Shown here: one piece after another, positions 20,367-28,251 of the stretch
How positions within the stretch are numbered: the first letter of the stretch is position 1
Layout of the letters: the number at the start of each line of letters is the position of its first letter
Assembly (NCBI RefSeq): GCF_041261445.1
Contig: NZ_JBGCCU010000011.1
Location: 248,001 to 312,000, forward strand
Direction of reading: 5' to 3'
DNA length: 64,000 nucleotides
Source of the DNA: Catenulispora sp. EB89
Lineage (GTDB): Bacteria; Actinomycetota; Actinomycetes; Streptomycetales; Catenulisporaceae
The notes under the pieces: model-generated
What the model saw: the letters and a program-made list of their open reading frames with translations, nothing else
Databases searched by the model: none
Told to the model about the DNA's origin: nothing
Translations under genes and position numbers: made by a program

Positions 20367-22196
20367 TCAGGCCGCCTCCACATCCAGGTGCTCGCGCAGG
20401 CCCGGGATCCACGCAGTCACGAGCGACCACGCCCCGGTGTCGACCCCGTCCTCGACGGCCCGCTCCGCCGCCCGCTCCCGCGACACCCCGGCCAGGCTGG
20501 CCGCGGCCGAGACGCTGATGCCGGGCCCCGGCCGCAGGCTCTGGAACCGGAGCAGACGCGCCGCCTCCTCGGACAACGCGCTGTACGACCACGAGAACAC
20601 CGCGCGCAGATCGGTCCGGTGGTCGCCGCCGTCCAGGGCCTCGAACGTCGTGGCGGCCTTCCCGAGATCGACCGCGTACTCGGCGATCGGCAGCCGCGGA
20701 TGCGTGGCGGCCCAGGCGCCGGCGAGGCTGATCGCCAACGGCAGGCCTTCGCAGCTCTCGATGACGCCGCGGACCGGCCCCGGCTCGGCGGCCAGGCGCG
20801 CCGGACCCAGCCGACGTTCCAGCAAAGCGTGCGCGTCCTGCGGGGACAGCAGGTCCAGCGGGATCGCCGTGGCGCCCTCGCACGCCACCAGCGAGGCCAG
20901 CGGATTCCTGCTGGTGACCAGCACCAGGCAGCCGGGGGCGCCGGGCAGCAGCGGCCGGATCTGCTCGGCGTCCCGGACGTTGTCCAGCACGATCAGCGCC
21001 CGCCGCTCGGCCAGCACGCCGCGGAACAGCGCGGCGCGCGCCGCGGGGTCCGAGGGGATCCGCTCTCGCGGCACGCCCAGCGCGACGAGGAACGCCCGCA
21101 GCGTCTGCCCGGTCTGGACCGCGGTCGCGCCGGCGCCGAACCCGGAGCCGTGCAGGTCGACGTACAGCTGGCCGTCCGGGAACGACCCGGCGACGCTCCG
21201 GGCCCAGTGCACGGCGAGCGCCGTCTTGCCGATCCCGGCCATCCCGGTGATCGCGGCGATCGCCGCCGGACTCGACGGATCGGCGTCCGCGACCCGCTCG
21301 GCCAGCGCGTCCAGGGTCCGGATCTGCGGGTCCCGGCCGACGATGTGCACCGAGCCGGGCAGCTGAGCCGGAGCCGGCGCCGACTCCCGCTCTGGCTCGC
21401 GCTCAGGCTCCCGTTCCGACCCCCGCTCAGTCTCCCGCTCCGACTCCGCCGACGACGGCCGCCGCAGCACGTCAGCGTCCTGCCGCAGGATCGCGGCCTC
21501 CAGCTCGCGCAGCGCCGAGCCGGGGTCCAGGCCGAGCTCCTCGCGCAATCCGCTGCTGGTCTCGCGGTACACGGCCAGCGCGTCGACCTGCCGCCCGGCC
21601 CGGTAGAGCGCTCGCATCAGCAGGCCTGCGGACTCCTCGTGCAGCCGGTTCTCGTGCCAGAGCTCCTGGGCGTCCTGGACCGCCTGGTTGACCCGGCCCA
21701 GGGTCAACAGGCAGTCGATGAGCAGTCGCCGAGCCCTGACCCGGAGGTCGTCCAGCCGTTGCGCCCAGCCGTGGAACGCCGCCAGATCCGCCACGTCCGC
21801 CAACGCCGGACCGCGCCACAGCGCGACCGCCTCCTGCGCGCGGGCCGTACGGCGGGCCGGGTCCTCCTCCCGCGCGGCCTCCTGGATCAGACGCCCGGCC
21901 GCTTCGGCGTCGGTCGCCTCGACGCCGAGCCGCAGCAGGTATCCCGGCGACACCGCCCGGATGGCGTCCGGATCGCCGAAAGCCCGCCGCAGGTAGGAAA
22001 TGTGCGCCTGGAGCGTGTTGCGGACCGTGGTCGGCGCCTGCCCGTCCCACACGGCCGCGGCCAGCCGTTCGGTGCTGACCACCCGGCCGGGTTCCACCGC
22101 CAGCGCCGCCAGCACCGCCTTGCGGCGCAGCCCCGAGACCTCGCACGAACCCTCCGGACCGGCGATCTCGATGGGTCCCAGAATCCTTACCTGCAT
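20367..22196 (-). CDS. AfsR/SARP-type regulator with NB-ARC ATPase domain
   Basis: A 609-residue regulator. Residues 1-95: OmpR-type winged helix of SARPs (MQVRILGPIEIAG, GLRRKAVLAALAVEPGRVVS, YLRRAFGDPDAIRAVSPGYL). Residues 96-242: bacterial transcriptional activator domain (ARQ/BTAD). Residues 250-275: a Glu/Arg/Ser charged linker. Residues 283-600: NB-ARC STAND NTPase with P-loop GMAGIGKTALA (318-328), Walker B ALIVLDNV and GLPLAI motif. It lacks the C-terminal TPR array of full AfsR (about 990 residues), so is a short form. The ATG at 22196 follows GGACGGAAG. SARPs bind direct heptamer repeats and activate secondary metabolite genes; the NRPS cluster is 20 kb away and the nearest divergent target is the oligopeptide operon, so the target is open. 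Confidence 0.9.
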   Translation of the reverse strand: MQVRILGPIEIAGPEGSCEVSGLRRKAVLAALAVEPGRVVSTERLAAAVWDGQAPTTVRNTLQAHISYLRRAFGDPDAIRAVSPGYLLRLGVEATDAEAAGRLIQEAAREEDPARRTARAQEAVALWRGPALADVADLAAFHGWAQRLDDLRVRARRLLIDCLLTLGRVNQAVQDAQELWHENRLHEESAGLLMRALYRAGRQVDALAVYRETSSGLREELGLDPGSALRELEAAILRQDADVLRRPSSAESERETERGSEREPEREPERESAPAPAQLPGSVHIVGRDPQIRTLDALAERVADADPSSPAAIAAITGMAGIGKTALAVHWARSVAGSFPDGQLYVDLHGSGFGAGATAVQTGQTLRAFLVALGVPRERIPSDPAARAALFRGVLAERRALIVLDNVRDAEQIRPLLPGAPGCLVLVTSRNPLASLVACEGATAIPLDLLSPQDAHALLERRLGPARLAAEPGPVRGVIESCEGLPLAISLAGAWAATHPRLPIAEYAVDLGKAATTFEALDGGDHRTDLRAVFSWSYSALSEEAARLLRFQSLRPGPGISVSAAASLAGVSRERAAERAVEDGVDTGAWSLVTAWIPGLREHLDVEAA

Positions 22197-22471
22197 CTTC
22201 CGTCCATCCCCCCGTAGCAGTGAATCTGCCTTCTGCGATCCGAAACGCACGCGGACGTGATCGGGTTCGCCCGGCTGGTTCGGGTGACGGCCACCGAGCC
22301 GTGTGCGCTGCCTCACACCGATACCGGTTCCGGCCCGAACCTCATCGCATGATCCTGACTTGTCATGGGAATAACCGCGCCATGCCTTGTGGCCATCCCG
22401 GCGCGATGATCTCGGCCCGGGCACCTCCCGGTAACGATCGCATCAAGGTCTTGTCCATATACCGGGCTGGT

Positions 22472-22501
22472 TTGACCCTCCCCGGAATCCCGACCTACCT
22501 T
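22472..22501 (+). promoter_or_regulatory. Sigma-70-like promoter giving a leaderless transcript
   Basis: TTGACC (22472-22477) and TACCTT (22496-22501) with an 18-bp spacer. The -10 ends 6 nt before an ATG at 22508, so transcription should start at or next to that ATG and the small ORF would be translated from a leaderless mRNA. The rest of the gap 22197-22471 holds the divergent regulator's promoter region and no recognisable gene. Confidence 0.7.
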
Positions 22502-22507
22502 CTAGAC

Positions 22508-22603
22508 ATGTCCTCGATCATCACGGCCCGCATGGCGTTCCTGGAACGCGCGCTGCTCGCGGTGACGAACCACTGCGTCGCGGACATCCTCTGTAGCCGC
22601 TAG
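22508..22603 (+). CDS. 31-residue putative cysteine-responsive leader peptide (uORF)
   Basis: The ORF encodes MSSIITARMAFLERALLAVT followed by NHCVADILCSR and a TAG stop. Actinobacteria have many short leaderless ORFs that end in a Cys-containing tail a few codons before the stop and act as attenuators sensing cysteine through ribosome stalling (established in mycobacteria). Here Cys codons are at positions 23 and 29 of 31, the promoter predicts a leaderless start, and an oligopeptide ABC operon begins 135 nt downstream. A weak hairpin (GCCCG/CGGGC, 22632-22651) followed by a U-richer stretch lies in the interval. The attenuator role is inference; the ORF could also be a chance frame. Confidence 0.55.
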   Translation: MSSIITARMAFLERALLAVTNHCVADILCSR

Positions 22604-22738
22604 CCGGACCCCAGCCGTTGATCGGCTTTCCGCCCGTGTTCCCGCGCGGGCCTGTGCTAAAGCGTTTTCTCGTCAGTGCGCGCCTCCCCGGCACGCACCG
22701 CTTTCCCACGTCTTCCCCCTCGTCCGAGAGGTCTTCCC

Positions 22739-24451
22739 ATGCGGAGAATATCCGTCCTTTCGGCTGCCCTGGCGCTGGTCGCCGCAGGTGCGGCCGCGTG
22801 CTCGTCGTCGGCGGGCCACTCCTCGTCCGGCGCCGCGGGCTCGGCCGCCTTCGACCCCAAGACGTGCCAGGGCGGCACGCTGGAGGTCCTGAACCAGGGC
22901 AGCATCAGCAAGCTGGACCCGGCGCGCATCTACACCTCCGGCGGCGGCAACATCCCCTCGCTGCTGTTCCGCACGCTCACCACGCGCAACCGGGAGCCCG
23001 GGCAGGACGGCGCCAAGGCCGCCCCGGACCTGGCCACCGACCTCGGGACGCCGAGCGACGGCGCGCAGACGTGGACGTACCACCTGAAGGACAACATCTT
23101 CTTCGAGGACGGCACGCCGATCACCTCGGCCGACATCAAGTACGGCATCGAGCGCTCGTTCGCGCCGGAACTGCCCGGCGGCGCCCCGTACCTGCGCGAC
23201 TGGCTGGTGAACGCGGCGAACTACCAGGGCCCCTACAAGGACCCGGACGGCATCGCGGCGATCCAGACGCCGGATGCGAAGACCATCATCTTCAAGCTGC
23301 GCAAGCCCGAGGGCGACTTCCCGCTGCTGGCCACCGCCACCCAGTTCGCCCCGGTGCCCAAGGCCAAGGACACCGGCGTCGACTACGAGAAGCACCCGAT
23401 CTCCTCCGGCCCGTACATGGTCGCCAGCTACGACAAGGGCAAGTCCCTGGACCTGGTGCGCAACCCGCACTGGTCCTCCGCCAGCGACACCCTGCGCTAC
23501 GCCTGCCCGGACAAGATCGACATCACCTCGGGCCTGAACCCGGCGGTGATCAACCAGCGCATCGCCACCGGCACCGGCCAGGACGCGAACGCGGTCACCA
23601 CCGACACCACCATCGGCCCGGACCAGCTGGCGCAGCTGAACAGCAACCCGGCGCTGGCCAAGCGGGTGGCGCACGGCGAGTTCCCGGCGACCTACTACAT
23701 CGCCTTCAACCCCAAGGTGAAGCCGTTCGACGACATCCGCGTGCGCGAGGCGATCTCCTACGCCGTCAACCGCACCACCGCGGTCAACTCCGCCGGCGGC
23801 ACCGCCGTGGCCGGCGCCTCGACCACCTTCCTGCCGCCGCAGAAGGCGCTGGGCTACCAGCCCTACGACTACTTCCCGGCCGGCGCCACCGGCGACCCGG
23901 CCAAGGCCAAGCAGCTGCTGGCGCAGGCCGGCTACCCCAACGGCCTGACGGTCACGCTGTTCCACCAGGCCGACGACGCCAACAACTTCGGCCCCAAGCT
24001 GGCCGCCTCGATCCAGGACGCGCTCAAGGCCGCCGGCATCACGGTGAACCTGAACCCGGTCGACGACAACAGCTACTCGGACGTGACCAACAAGCCCAGC
24101 ACCGAGCCCGGCATGTCGCTGCAGTACTGGGGCGCCGACTGGCCCTCCGGCGCGCCGTTCCTGATCCCGATCTTCGACGGCCGGCAGATCGTCACCAGCG
24201 GCGGCAACTTCAACCTGGCGCAGCTGAACGACCCAAGCGTGAACGCCGAGATCGACGCGATCAACGCCATCACCGACCCGCAGCAGGCCCAGGCCCGCTG
24301 GGGCGCGCTGGACGCCAAGCTCGGGCAGCAGGCGCTGACCGTGCCGCTGATGTACGAGAAGGACGTCGCGCTGTTCGGCAAGAACGTGAAGAACGCCGTC
24401 CCCGACGGCTGGCGCGGCCAGTACGACCTTGCCCGCGTGTCGGTCAAGTAA
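22739..24451 (+). CDS. Oligopeptide ABC transporter substrate-binding lipoprotein
   Basis: A 570-residue SBP family 5 (DppA/OppA) protein. The signal peptide MRRISVLSAALALVAAGAAAC has a lipobox ending at Cys21, giving a lipid-anchored binding protein. The mature protein shows the family-5 signature: QGGTLEVLNQGSISKLDPAR, YHLKDNIFFEDGTPITSADI, DPDGIAAIQTPDAKTIIFKL, HPISSGPYMVASYDKGKSLD, DIRVREAISYAVNRT. Start ATG 22739 after GAGAGG. It opens a four-gene uptake operon (SBP, two permeases, fused ATPase). Ligand could be a peptide, nickel chelate or other small molecule; nothing in the sequence decides this, but the Cys-rich uORF upstream would fit a sulfur-containing ligand (inference). Confidence 0.93.
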   Translation: MRRISVLSAALALVAAGAAACSSSAGHSSSGAAGSAAFDPKTCQGGTLEVLNQGSISKLDPARIYTSGGGNIPSLLFRTLTTRNREPGQDGAKAAPDLATDLGTPSDGAQTWTYHLKDNIFFEDGTPITSADIKYGIERSFAPELPGGAPYLRDWLVNAANYQGPYKDPDGIAAIQTPDAKTIIFKLRKPEGDFPLLATATQFAPVPKAKDTGVDYEKHPISSGPYMVASYDKGKSLDLVRNPHWSSASDTLRYACPDKIDITSGLNPAVINQRIATGTGQDANAVTTDTTIGPDQLAQLNSNPALAKRVAHGEFPATYYIAFNPKVKPFDDIRVREAISYAVNRTTAVNSAGGTAVAGASTTFLPPQKALGYQPYDYFPAGATGDPAKAKQLLAQAGYPNGLTVTLFHQADDANNFGPKLAASIQDALKAAGITVNLNPVDDNSYSDVTNKPSTEPGMSLQYWGADWPSGAPFLIPIFDGRQIVTSGGNFNLAQLNDPSVNAEIDAINAITDPQQAQARWGALDAKLGQQALTVPLMYEKDVALFGKNVKNAVPDGWRGQYDLARVSVK

Positions 24452-24461
24452 GGCCCCTGCG

Positions 24462-25430
24462 TTGACCACCACCATCGAGGCGGCGGCGGGCTCCGGCCCG
24501 TCGTCGCCCCCGCCGCTCCCGTCCCCGCCGCGTCCGCGCGGCGCGCTGTGGCGGCGCCTGCGCAAGGACAAGGCCGCCGCGGCCGGCATGGTCATCATCA
24601 CGGTGATGGTGCTGGTCGCGGTGTTCGCCCCGGTCCTGACCGCCCTGGAGGGCCAGGACACCACCTCCCAGCACCCGGAGCTGGTCGACTCGGCCACCGG
24701 CGGCACTCCCCTGGGCTCCTTCGGCGGCATCAGCGCGAGCCACTGGCTCGGTGTGGAGCCGCAGACCGGCCGCGACCTGTTCGCCCGACTCGTCTACGGC
24801 GCCCGGATCTCGCTCGGCGTCGCGATCGGCGCCACCGCGCTGCAGGTGCTCATCGGCTTGTCGGTGGGCATCGCCGCCGGGCTCGGCGGCCGGGTCACCG
24901 ACGGCATCCTGAGCCGGCTGACCGACCTGTCGCTGGCCTTCCCCTCGGTGCTGTTCGCGATCGGGCTGATGGCGATCGTCCCGGCCTCGATCCCGCGGCC
25001 GCTGATCCTGGCCGTGGTCATCGCGCTGCTCGGCTGGGGCAGCACGGCGCGGCTGGCGCGCGGCCAGGCGCTGTCGCTGCGCACCCGCGACTACGTGGCC
25101 GCCGCCAAGCTCTCCGGCGCGCCGCCGCTGCGCGTGGCCCGCCGGGAGATCCTGCCCGGGCTGGTGACCCCGATCCTGACCTACGCCGCGCTGCTGGTGC
25201 CGAGCAACATGGTCGCCGAGGCCGGGCTGTCGTTCCTGGGCGTCGGCGTGCGGCCGCCGACGCCGTCGTGGGGCCAGATGCTCTCCGGCGGCACCACCTG
25301 GTTCCGGCCCGACGTGATGTACGTGCTCGTCCCCGGCGGCGCGCTGTTCCTGACGCTGCTGGCGTTCACGCTCCTGGCCGACGGCGTCCGCCGGGTCCTG
25401 GACCCGCGCAACACGGAGGTGGCGGCGTGA
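24462..25430 (+). CDS. ABC transporter permease, DppC-like
   Basis: About 322 residues, BPD-type permease with a Pro-rich cytoplasmic head. The first membrane helix is AAGMVIITVMVLVAVFAPVL, then the periplasmic HWLGVEPQTGRDLFARLVYG segment typical of DppC/OppC, five core helices and the EAA loop DYVAAAKLSGAPPLRVARRE-ILPG. A TTG at 24462, 10 nt after the SBP stop, is the likely start (AAGG upstream). It overlaps the next permease (GTGA). In most dpp operons dppB precedes dppC; here the order is reversed. Confidence 0.9.
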   Translation: MTTTIEAAAGSGPSSPPPLPSPPRPRGALWRRLRKDKAAAAGMVIITVMVLVAVFAPVLTALEGQDTTSQHPELVDSATGGTPLGSFGGISASHWLGVEPQTGRDLFARLVYGARISLGVAIGATALQVLIGLSVGIAAGLGGRVTDGILSRLTDLSLAFPSVLFAIGLMAIVPASIPRPLILAVVIALLGWGSTARLARGQALSLRTRDYVAAAKLSGAPPLRVARREILPGLVTPILTYAALLVPSNMVAEAGLSFLGVGVRPPTPSWGQMLSGGTTWFRPDVMYVLVPGGALFLTLLAFTLLADGVRRVLDPRNTEVAA

Positions 25431-26416
25431 TCGGCTACCTCATCCGCCGGGTCGTCGGCGCGGCGATCGTGCTGCTGGCGTTGTCGGCGATCGTCTACGC
25501 GCTCTTCTACGCCGGCCCCTCCGACCCGGCACTGCTGGCCTGCGGCAAGGGCTGCACGCCGGACCGGCTGGCGGTCGTGAAGTCCTCGATGGGGCTGGAC
25601 AAGCCGCTGGTCGACCAGTACTTCTCGTTCCTGTACGGGATCTTCTTCGGGCACGACTACTCCTCCGGGCCCAGCGTCCAGCACTGCCCGGCGCCGTGCC
25701 TGGGCTACTCCTTCGAGACCGACCAGCCGGTGACCACGATCCTGGGCAGCGCACTGCCGGTGTCGGCGTCGCTGGCCATCGGCGCCATGACGCTGTCGCT
25801 GCTGCTGGGCATCGGCGCCGGCCTGGTGACGGTGCTCAGCCGTCAGCGCTGGCTGGACCGCGCGCTGAACGCGGTCGTCCTGGTCGGGTACGCCACGCCG
25901 GTGTTCCTGGTCGCGTTGGTGCTGCTCATCGTGTTCTGCGCCGACCTGCAGTGGCTGCCGTTCCCGACGTACGTGCCGCTGACGCAGGACCCGGCCGGCT
26001 GGGCGCAGAACCTGCTGCTGCCCTGGATCGCTCTGGCGCTGATCCTGGCCGCCGCCTACGCGCGGATGACCCGGGCGCAGACGCTGGAGACGCTGAGCGA
26101 GGACCACGTCCGCACGGCGCGCGCCTACGGCCTGCCCGAGCACCGGGTCATCACCCGGCACGTGCTGCGCGGCGCGCTCACCCCGCTGGTCACCATGGCC
26201 GCGATCGACCTGGCCGCGGTGATGACCTCGGCGGTGCTCACCGAGACCATGTTCGGGCTGCCGGGCATCGGGCAGGCGCTGGTCAGCGCGGTCGGGAGCA
26301 CCGACCTGCCGGTGATCGTCGGCGTGACGCTCACCGCCGGGGCGGTGTACGTCGTGGCCAACGCCCTGGCCGACGTCCTGTACGCGGCGATCGACCCCCG
26401 AGTGGAGCTGACATGA
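25427..26416 (+). CDS. ABC transporter permease, DppB-like
   Basis: A 329-residue permease starting at GTG 25427, overlapping the previous stop. N-terminus VIGYLIRRVVGAAIVLLALS and the motif RLAVVKSSMGLDKPLVDQYF are the DppB/OppB signature; the EAA loop is DHVRTARAYGLPEHRVITRH. The periplasmic loop contains four cysteines (LLACGKGCTPD and HCPAPCLG), unusual for this family and possibly two disulfides. It ends in ATGA overlap with the ATPase gene. Confidence 0.92.
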   Translation: MIGYLIRRVVGAAIVLLALSAIVYALFYAGPSDPALLACGKGCTPDRLAVVKSSMGLDKPLVDQYFSFLYGIFFGHDYSSGPSVQHCPAPCLGYSFETDQPVTTILGSALPVSASLAIGAMTLSLLLGIGAGLVTVLSRQRWLDRALNAVVLVGYATPVFLVALVLLIVFCADLQWLPFPTYVPLTQDPAGWAQNLLLPWIALALILAAAYARMTRAQTLETLSEDHVRTARAYGLPEHRVITRHVLRGALTPLVTMAAIDLAAVMTSAVLTETMFGLPGIGQALVSAVGSTDLPVIVGVTLTAGAVYVVANALADVLYAAIDPRVELT

Positions 26417-28251
26417 CCGCGACGGAACCTGATTCGACGGAGCCGGTGTCGACGGAGCCGGTGTTGGAGGTCAAGGGCCTGACGATCGACTTCCCGGTCC
26501 GGGGCGGCGAGGTCGTGCACGCGGTCAAGGACCTGAGCTTCTCAGTCCGGGCGGGCTCGGCGCTGGGCATCGTCGGCCAGTCCGGCTCGGGCAAGAGCGC
26601 CACCGCGCTGTCCCTGCTGGGGCTGCACCGCGGCACCTCAGCCCGGGTGTCCGGGCAGGTCCTGGTCGACGGCGTGGACCTGGTCTCGGCCACCGACACC
26701 GAGGTGCGCAAGCTGCGCGCCTCGAAGATCGCGATGGTGTTCCAGGACCCCCTGACCGCGCTGGACCCGTTCCACACCATCGGCGACCAGATCTCCGAGG
26801 TGTACCGGCTGCACACCGGCGCGTCCCGGGCCGCGGCGCGGGCGCGCACGATCGAGGTGCTGGAGCAGGTGCGGATCCCGGACGCCGGGCGGCGCCTGCG
26901 GGCGCACCCGCACGAGTTCTCCGGCGGGATGCGGCAGCGTGCGCTGATCGCGATGGCGCTGGCCTGCCGGCCGGCGGTGCTGGTCGCGGACGAGCCGACG
27001 ACGGCGCTGGACGTGACGGTGCAGGCGCAGATCCTGGACCTGCTGGCCGAGGTGCAGAGCGAGACCGGGATGGCGCTGGTGCTGATCAGCCACGACCTCG
27101 GGGTGGTCGCCGGGACCGCCGACGAGGTGGTGGTGATGCATCGGGGGGTCGCGGTGGAGAGCGGGTCTGCGGAGCAGGTTTTGCTCGATCCGCAGCATGC
27201 TTATACGCAGGGGTTGTTGGCGGCGATGCCTCGGCTGGATTCGCCGCTGCCGGAGCGGGGGCCGGTGCGGGAGCGGGAGCGGGAGCAGGAGCGGGTTGCC
27301 TTGGCGGACGGCGATCGCGTCGACGGCGACGCTGGTGCTGGTGCTGGTGCTGGTTCCGGTGCTAGTGCTAGTGCTAGTGCTAGTGCTGCCGATCGCGTCG
27401 ACGCCGAGCCGGACGTCCTGGTGCGCATCGAAGGCGTCGCCAAGCACTACCGGCGCGGCGGCGCACTGCTCGGCCGCCGTACCGAGCCCCTGCGCGCGGT
27501 GGACGGCGTCAGCCTGGAGCTGCGGGCCGGCGAAACCCTCGGCCTGGTCGGCGAGAGCGGCAGCGGCAAGACCACCTTGGCGCGCATGCTCGTACGCCTG
27601 CTGGAGCCGTCGGCCGGAAGCGTGGTGTTCAGCGGCACCGACATCTCGGCGATCCCCGAGCGTCAACTCCGGCCGCTGCGCCGCGACCTGCAGATGGTCT
27701 TCCAGGACCCGCTGTCCTCGCTGAACCCGCGCCGCTCGGTCGGCGAAACCATCGCCGACCCGCTGCGCATAGCGGGAGGTTCCTCGGACGCCGAGATCCG
27801 CACCGCCGTCCGCGAGCTCATGACGAACGTCGGCCTGGACCCCGAGTCCTACGAGCGCTTCCCGCACGAGTTCTCCGGCGGCATGCGCCAACGCGTCGGC
27901 ATCGCCCGCGCCCTGGCCCTGCGCCCGAAGCTGCTGGTCTGCGACGAACCGGTGGCCTCCCTGGACGTCTCAACCCAGGCGGTGATCCTCGACCTGCTGC
28001 GCGACGTCCAGCGCGAGTACGGCCTCACCGTGGTGTTCGTCGCCCACGACCTGGCCGTGGTCCGCCAGATCGCGGACCGCGTGGCGGTGATGCGGCACGG
28101 CCGCATCGTCGAACTCGCGGACGCCGCGACCCTGTTCGACGCCCCACAGCACGAGTACACGCGCACGCTACTGGACGCGGTGCCGATCCTGGACCCGGCG
28201 GCGGCCCGGGCACAGCGCGCGCGGCGACGGGAGGCTTTGGCGGCGGCGTGA
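26413..28251 (+). CDS. Fused DppD-DppF dual ABC ATPase
   Basis: A 612-residue protein with two complete oligopeptide-type ATPase halves. Half 1: Walker A GQSGSGKS (55-62), signature [16 protein letters not shown], Walker [13 protein letters not shown], switch SHDLG. Half 2: Walker A GESGSGKT, signature [16 protein letters not shown], Walker [13 protein letters not shown], switch AHDLA. Each has the C-terminal [12 protein letters not shown] or [12 protein letters not shown] zinc/oligopeptide-type tail segment. The halves are joined by a low-complexity linker with (GA)n and (SA)n repeats. It completes a self-sufficient ABC importer with the three upstream genes. Confidence 0.94.
27313..27403. 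repeat. Repeat-built linker inside the dual ATPase
   Basis: Runs of GGTGCT and AGTGCT (27333-27387, encoding Gly-Ala and Ser-Ala repeats) are framed by a direct repeat GATCGCGTCGACG at 27313-27325 and 27391-27403 (Asp-Arg-Val-Asp in the protein). All units are multiples of three, keeping the frame. Confidence 0.85.

Follow-up and report, generated by a model that had tools for sequence, protein, structure and literature searches.

Short leaderless open reading frames (ORFs) with cysteine codons are the closest described relatives of the element reported here. In Mycobacterium smegmatis, such ORFs control the genes downstream of them (Canestrari 2020, as summarised in PMC9031893 and PMC13236596; the same attenuators are cited in PMC9094748), and PMC4633059 places Cys-rich leaderless ORFs in mycobacteria. 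The mycobacterial cys operons have leader peptides with Cys runs and without conserved terminators, for which Rho was suggested in 2005 (PMC1262725). For Streptomyces lividans, PMC8079986 describes eight leader peptides and assigns none of them to cysteine. We analysed a 64,000-nucleotide (nt) stretch of Catenulispora sp. EB89 (contig NZ_JBGCCU010000011.1, positions 248,001 to 312,000), referred to as the window, in which a 31-codon ORF precedes the operon of a peptide-type ATP-binding cassette (ABC) importer. The ORF belongs to a family that NCBI curators already recognise, NF042937 (Ms4533A family Cys-rich leader peptide), and the leader itself is not new. Among the papers listed by searches limited to an open-access library, no title or abstract opening mentioned a leader of this kind before a peptide importer or a rule on UGU codons. 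We propose that the ORF probably encodes the leader peptide of an attenuator that acts through the ribosome, responds to cysteine and controls a sulfur-scavenging importer of the peptide type. The leader locus contains the following features.

22472-22477, + strand: -35 element TTGACC, read in the sequence and kept in the same-genus loci
22496-22501, + strand: -10 element TACCTT, of the TAnnnT form, read in the sequence (consensus in PMC8079986)
22508-22603, + strand: leader ORF of 31 codons plus TAG (22601-22603), predicted leaderless, NF042937 Ms4533A family by conservation and profile; product MSSIITARMAFLERALLAVTNHCVADILCSR
22535-22597, + strand: conserved core of the peptide, AFLERALLAVTNHCVADILCS, from alignment and the ratio of nonsynonymous to synonymous changes (pN/pS)
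22574-22576, + strand: first Cys codon, TGC, replaced by Ser or Ala in some relatives (leader alignment)
22592-22594, + strand: Cys codon TGT of the VADxxC motif, two codons ahead of the stop, invariant among relatives (115/115 and 5/5)

Like members of NF042937, the leader peptide scores above the family cut-off (37.5 bits against 31; 35.2 bits in a six-frame genome search), has about 30 residues, is predicted to be leaderless, carries a near-stop Cys and is the first ORF of an ABC importer operon. Unlike the members in mycobacteria-type genomes, it stands before an importer of the peptide (family-5) type and not of sulfate, has no Cys run and is followed by a weak stop hairpin. It shares with the polycysteine attenuators of M. 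smegmatis a short ORF with Cys codons, a predicted leaderless start and a place before an operon, but its two Cys are separated; the Shine-Dalgarno (SD) sequence is mostly paired in the model, about as much as in shuffled sequences, which lends masking no clear support. A second curated family, NF042934 (HVDL...SA[IL]C), is similar in being a short ORF with conserved residues before a UGU Cys codon and sulfur genes downstream, and it too occurs before orthologs of the substrate-binding protein (SBP) of this importer. Its peptide sequence is unrelated; NF042937 is the sole NCBIfam match of the window peptide up to an E-value of 1, and NF042934 is not matched. TnaC and the tna operon resemble the locus in the peptide-dependent control that may act at the end of the ORF and in a C-rich leader suited to Rho, and differ in signal and sequence.

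A conserved leader peptide with an invariant UGU codon

The arrangement described in a first-pass annotation of this DNA, with 18 nt between TTGACC and TACCTT and 6 nt from TACCTT to the ATG at 22508 of the 31-codon ORF, is read directly in the sequence and recurs in nine of ten same-genus genomes, where the geometry of -35, -10 and ATG is preserved at 9/9 loci. A strict sigma-70 consensus scan found no promoter at the leader locus because TACCTT departs from the strict -10 consensus and satisfies just the relaxed form TAnnnT. For promoters of leaderless genes in S. lividans, the consensus given is TTGACn together with TAnnnT (PMC8079986). The leader transcript is predicted to be leaderless, with its start at or next to A22508. 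As the reading frame is also open 5' of the ATG (GTG at 22220), we infer the ATG start from promoter geometry and conservation.

The leader peptide is present in 9 of the 14 genomes of the taxonomic family, all nine in the genus of the window, for which ten genomes were available, and all nine peptides match NF042937 at E ≤0.01. The same nine genomes carry the SBP ortholog (84-100% identity); the tenth has no leader, and its best SBP relative is at 41%. Three genomes of a second genus have an SBP ortholog at 58% together with a shorter leader relative, MNLSAPRPTTHEVVLIGMSAHSVADILC or near variants, preceded by TTTGACC and a -10-like hexamer; the one scored against NF042937 reached 26.8 bits, below the cut-off. 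No such leader was found at seven paralogous SBP loci (≤43% identity). Within the genome of the window, 13 further profile matches all have E ≥0.95 and none is above the cut-off. A 79% DNA match on contig C12, considered as a leader paralog, lies inside a nonribosomal peptide synthetase-like gene and was taken as chance.

Searches at wider taxonomic scope placed the family in two main groups. Among 394 genomes of the class, 40 match NF042937 at E ≤0.001 (the window's own genome, 17 of family f2, 21 of family f5 and one of family f19), and 36 exceed the cut-off. We read f2 as streptomycete-type and f5 as mycobacteria-type genomes. In the streptomycete-type group, the leader and an SBP match at E ≤1e-130 occur in one and the same set of 17 genomes. 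At order level, 103 of 293 genomes match the profile at E ≤0.01. The comparisons below use 115 fetched leaders, which include a part of these 103 matches and count one genome twice (G391, as L045 and L111). Start codons were chosen with preference for starts that have a -10-like hexamer, which biases any tally of -10 spacing in this set.

The core of the peptide, taken as 14 codons before to 4 codons after the V of VAD, is under purifying selection at the amino-acid level, and the ORF is not a chance one. In the genus, pN/pS is 0.033 in the core and 1.61 in the N-terminus; the corresponding values are 0.47 and 1.26 in 78 distinct streptomycete-type leaders and 0.48 and 0.95 in the 21 mycobacteria-type leaders. 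Within the core, constraint is tight over the VAD stretch (0.28 and 0.22 in streptomycete-type and mycobacteria-type leaders, respectively) and loose just before it (0.78 and 0.85).

When the 115 leaders are aligned on VAD-x-x-C, the Cys codon of this motif is TGT in every one. Five fetched matches that fail the pattern read VSD, and their Cys codon is again TGT (5/5). The background share of TGT among Cys codons is 19/131 (14.5%) in window genes and 18/165 (10.9%) in the streptomycete-type loci, and the Cys six codons before the VADxxC Cys, where present, is TGC in 65 of 68 cases. The invariant codon lies 0 to 2 codons ahead of the stop in 111/115 leaders. It is not always the last Cys of the peptide, as 27 of the 115 have a further one downstream: TGC in nine streptomycete-type leaders, TGT (17) then TGC (5) in the mycobacteria-type group, and one far TGT in the genus. 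In one leader (L011, genome G011) the ORF continues 14 codons beyond the usual stop and picks up another UGU Cys codon. A comparison of C-termini and Cys codons across orthologous loci, called for in the first-pass annotation, has thus returned a conserved core and an invariant UGU, which we propose as the cysteine-sensing codon.

Base pairing alone seems not to explain the choice of UGU. The codon that follows it in streptomycete-type leaders is NGC in 81/81 (the set as first grouped), whether it encodes Arg, Ser or Cys, and starts a hairpin. In one subgroup of these leaders the U of UGU is paired in this stop hairpin in 26 of 28; in another subgroup the same position is unpaired in the hairpin as drawn, yet it is still U. 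The unrelated HVDL-type leaders that were examined also have TGT at their Cys (9/9). By eye, an Ala often stands at the fourth position ahead of the UGU-encoded Cys (A-x-x-x-C) in VAD-type and HVDL-type leaders alike, which is possibly a stalling feature common to the two. A separate observation concerns the metL leader of S. lividans, MSTTSDRTPATEATTTPGARCMCRRMCAF, published as a methionine leader before metNIQ (PMC8079986): it has three Cys codons and may sense cysteine instead of methionine.

The importer operon and its sulfur context

Domain searches agree with the earlier description of the downstream genes as a peptide-type importer operon.

22739-24451, + strand: family-5 substrate-binding lipoprotein (SBP_bac_5, Pfam PF00496), start ATG 22739
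24462-25430, + strand: OppC/DppC-type permease, start uncertain (domain search)
25427-26416, + strand: OppB/DppB-type permease (domain search)
26413-28251, + strand: fused OppD-OppF-type ATPase (domain search)

The gene order SBP-OppC-OppB-OppDF was found in 12/12 chosen loci, with the ATPase only partial in one. A translated search downstream of the 115 leaders showed the window-type SBP after 9/9 leaders of the genus, 3/3 of the second genus and 79/81 of the streptomycete-type group; the remaining two (L108 and L127) gave no SBP match under the filter of this search. All 21 mycobacteria-type leaders are followed by a sulfate-binding SubI-type gene, and for one of these genes NCBIfam confirmed that the product is a sulfate-binding protein. 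Overall, in 112/115 cases the gene that comes directly after the leader is one or the other of these two importer genes. In another lineage, the VAD-type leader L159 (genome G185), VFRSTRVTTHRLALFAVASHCVADISCRRVAR, has neither a peptide-type nor a sulfate SBP downstream under the same filter.

We also inspected 36 named loci that carry the SBP or a relative; for L196 part of the sequence upstream consists of N, and to L217 the strict rule alone was applied. A VAD-type leader is present at nine of them (six Catenulispora-type, two Actinocatenispora and one Actinopolymorpha). Two of these were scored against NF042937: the Actinocatenispora leader passes at 33.8 and the Actinopolymorpha leader fails at 18.4.

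The link between the importer and sulfur suggested at first pass is strengthened by other sulfur-linked control devices before orthologs in other lineages. Four SBP orthologs, three from Actinoallomurus and one from a strain named Actinomadura sp. DC4, have the unrelated HVDL-SALC leader; one was scored against NF042934 and passes (31.7, cut-off 27). The genome of the window has five candidate HVDL-SA[IL]C leaders of its own (L219-L223, on contigs C19, C7, C23, C29 and C8), all with UGU, which were picked out by motif at profile E-values of 6e-4 to 0.8. Two of them precede DmoA-type monooxygenases, one over and one just under the NCBIfam cut-off, one precedes a ThiS-like protein and a cysteine synthase, and the last two precede NMT1-type SBPs, in one case along with SsuE.

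In Actinomadura macrotermitis, the SBP ortholog has no Cys leader and carries the promoter motif RGTAGGRAWAGTTG instead. With at most one mismatch, this motif has 8 matches in the genome against 4 for the reversed control, a modest enrichment, and the case for it rests on gene identities rather than on match count. Sites occur at the SBP promoter, at a sulfite-dehydrogenase-like gene, at a sulfatase (one mismatch) and at a TauD dioxygenase (one mismatch, opposite orientation); of the remaining sites, one is at the end of the SBP operon and three have no evident gene. The four loci with an identified gene (L234, L236, L238 and L241) form a candidate sulfur regulon. Taken at sequence level, these observations suggest that lineages differ in the device that places this one transporter under sulfur control. 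Actinoplanes-type orthologs (L189-L198 and L209) have no Cys leader, and several have inverted-repeat-like promoter elements, for example CCTATCGATCCGATAGG or GATAGCATACAAA-CCATAGA, in the roughly 150 nt that precede the SBP start; these are possibly sites of a sulfur regulator.

Two further features lie upstream of the leader.

22430-22463, + strand: conserved block of about 34 nt 5' of the -35 element, GGTAACGATCRCRTCAAGGTCTTGTCCATATACC with few changes in nine same-genus loci
20367-22193, - strand: gene of a SARP/AfsR-like regulator (BTAD and NB-ARC domains), the divergent upstream neighbour

The block is a possible site for some regulator. The mismatch-free match to its core pattern is the sole one in its own genome, and the other matches all have two mismatches and are no more numerous than in the reversed control (6 and 6); it was rejected as a regulon motif. 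The regulator gene adjoins the operon at one of six named Catenulispora-type loci (Catenulispora rubra, L183), and several of the others end at contig ends.

The untranslated leader and a proposed mode of control

Between the leader ORF and the SBP gene lies a C-rich RNA with the following features.

22604-22725, + strand: untranslated leader of 122 nt, C-rich, G-poor and A-poor (composition, fold)
22613-22627, + strand: hairpin AGCCG/CGGCU directly after the leader ORF (fold)
22659-22704, + strand: genus-wide conserved hairpin AAAGCG...CGCUUU, which encloses GUGCG/CGCAC (fold of 22655-22708, z -3.28)
22726-22731, + strand: SD sequence of the SBP gene, GAGAGG; short local CUC/GAG hairpin (sequence, fold)

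The C/G ratio of 22604-22726 is 1.74, a value reached by 0.9% of stretches of the same size on both strands. From the leader stop to the SBP start (22604-22741, 138 nt), the predicted fold of the RNA has three hairpins and outscores 199 of 200 shuffled versions (z -4.28). Rfam gave no match at gathering score over the window; below threshold, the opposite strand had a single match with E 0.47.

We propose the following sequence of events. RNA synthesis would start at or beside A22508, and a 70S ribosome is predicted to initiate on the leaderless AUG. When Cys-tRNA is scarce, the ribosome would pause with the near-stop UGU in its A site, and selection on the peptide suggests that the conserved nascent chain may aid the pause. 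Paused there, the ribosome would shield the start of the C-rich leader, such that Rho does not terminate and/or an inhibitory RNA structure fails to form, and the importer would be made. With plentiful cysteine, the ribosome would depart fast and the operon would stay low. The importer would thus be part of the sulfur-scavenging response and would probably import peptides or another organic sulfur compound. For the effector step in the window leader we slightly prefer Rho, which a C-rich, G-poor leader with no terminator-like site would suit.

Several results weigh against this proposal. The likeness to Cys-rich attenuators of sulfur genes drawn in the first-pass annotation holds for the architecture, the curated family and the usual sulfur context, but not for a Cys run: the window leader has a single TGC and a single TGT six codons apart, where the mycobacterial cases have a run, and the aligned Cys is the only one in 21 of 81 streptomycete-type and 3/3 second-genus leaders. 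Among the 36 named loci, 23 have no detected Cys leader (six of these are relatives at ≤43%), which indicates that the importer does not need the leader everywhere. Terminator-like sites in the window leader number zero, unlike in a classical terminator-type attenuator. The stretch 22592-22640 alone folds no better than shuffles (z -0.57), and the stop hairpin is weak in the genus (mean z -0.86 against -1.98 for its control stretch). Covariation is not above shuffles in three alignments (A5, A6 and A7), one of the genus and two of streptomycete-type subgroups; alignment A4 was too poor to fold. SD accessibility was compared for nine leaders of the genus and for 14 leaders, the first ones, from each streptomycete-type subgroup. 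It is low yet near that of shuffles (genus, 0.14 with shuffles at 0.13; subgroups, 0.15 and 0.13 with shuffles at 0.17). Removing the ribosome footprint from the model raised SD access by more than 0.1 in 0/9 genus and in 3/27 and 1/42 streptomycete-type leaders, and lowered it in two, seven and none of these, respectively. For the genus of the window, neither the tests of SD masking nor those of covariation thus spoke for an RNA switch.

A possible, though not the favoured, explanation is nascent-chain arrest, in which LALxxV...VAD(I/V)xC binds the exit tunnel and renders the ribosome hypersensitive at the UGU or the nearby stop, the signal being cysteine, Cys-tRNA or another thiol. TnaC arrests the ribosome at its stop codon. 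Purifying selection on the non-Cys residues is consistent with arrest, as are a core common to lineages although the codons differ and the position of UGU close to the stop. Many relatives have a single Cys, and conservation of the peptide itself suggests that more than the supply of a codon is at work. On the other side, codon supply accounts for the members with Cys runs with no need of arrest, the tunnel contacts are conjectural, and the stretch before VAD is the less constrained part of the core in streptomycete-type and mycobacteria-type leaders.

It is rather doubtful that control works by SD masking, in which GACGACC would pair with the SD region AGGUCGUC in one streptomycete-type subgroup and a stalled ribosome would release the upstream arm and free the SD. 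GACGACC is present in 29 of 38 streptomycete-type leaders whose SD is GGTCGTC and in 2 of 31 with other SDs, where shuffles expect 2.8 in 69; this count covers 69 of the 81 leaders, the 12 without the SD pattern being excluded, and is inflated by related sequences, since relatedness was not corrected. One leader has a matching double change, GAAGACC with GGTCTTC. The stop hairpin is stable in streptomycete-type and mycobacteria-type leaders (mean z -2.35 and -2.08; control stretches lying 60 nt further along give -0.28 and -0.08), and in a consensus fold of 35 of the streptomycete-type leaders, GACGACC pairs with an arm of this hairpin. In the model, then, the pattern hints at an alternative pairing. 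Pairs changed on both sides number 2 in one streptomycete-type alignment, against 0.6 in shuffles (39/500 reach this value), and 0 in the other; together with the covariation scores and the footprint model given above, this argues against masking, and the anti-SD segment was not found in the genus of the window.

An importer of ordinary peptides with a leader that senses some other signal is improbable: the nearest solved relative of the SBP by sequence is 2wok, OppA2 of the clavulanic acid cluster, as such an importer might have, but different sulfur-linked control devices precede the orthologs. Least credible, and very improbable, is a small protein with its own function, as a transporter subunit or a thiol sensor acting in trans; amino-acid-level selection would fit it, but not the constant place directly upstream of the importer genes, and an invariant UGU would be meaningless for a mature protein.

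A possible role of cysteine leaders in sulfur starvation

The cysteine-responsive attenuator that we favour would make a shortage of cysteine the likely physiological signal for a peptide-type importer found in Catenulispora and in many streptomycete-type genomes. A Cys leader family formerly placed before sulfate importers would here link peptide uptake to sulfur supply. What is new is the invariant, rare UGU, often at the sole Cys, the finding that HVDL-SALC leaders also use UGU and stand before this SBP in Actinoallomurus, and the promoter motif common to an Actinomadura ortholog and sulfur genes. UGU in VADxxC near the stop provides a testable rule for spotting and dissecting Cys leaders, and the amino-acid conservation raises the question whether these leaders, beyond counting codons, act as arrest peptides.

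A single tRNA-Cys decodes UGU, by G34:U3 wobble. We tentatively offer, as something that may well prove too broad, the generalisation that actinobacterial Cys leaders are nascent-chain-dependent sensors that read one rare near-stop UGU. Two or more families without sequence kinship, VAD-x-x-C and HVDL-SA-x-C among them, would have this codon as a common hallmark, perhaps because wobble decoding renders it more sensitive than any other codon to the supply of Cys-tRNA, and through these leaders peptide import would join the sulfur-starvation network of Streptomycetales and related orders.

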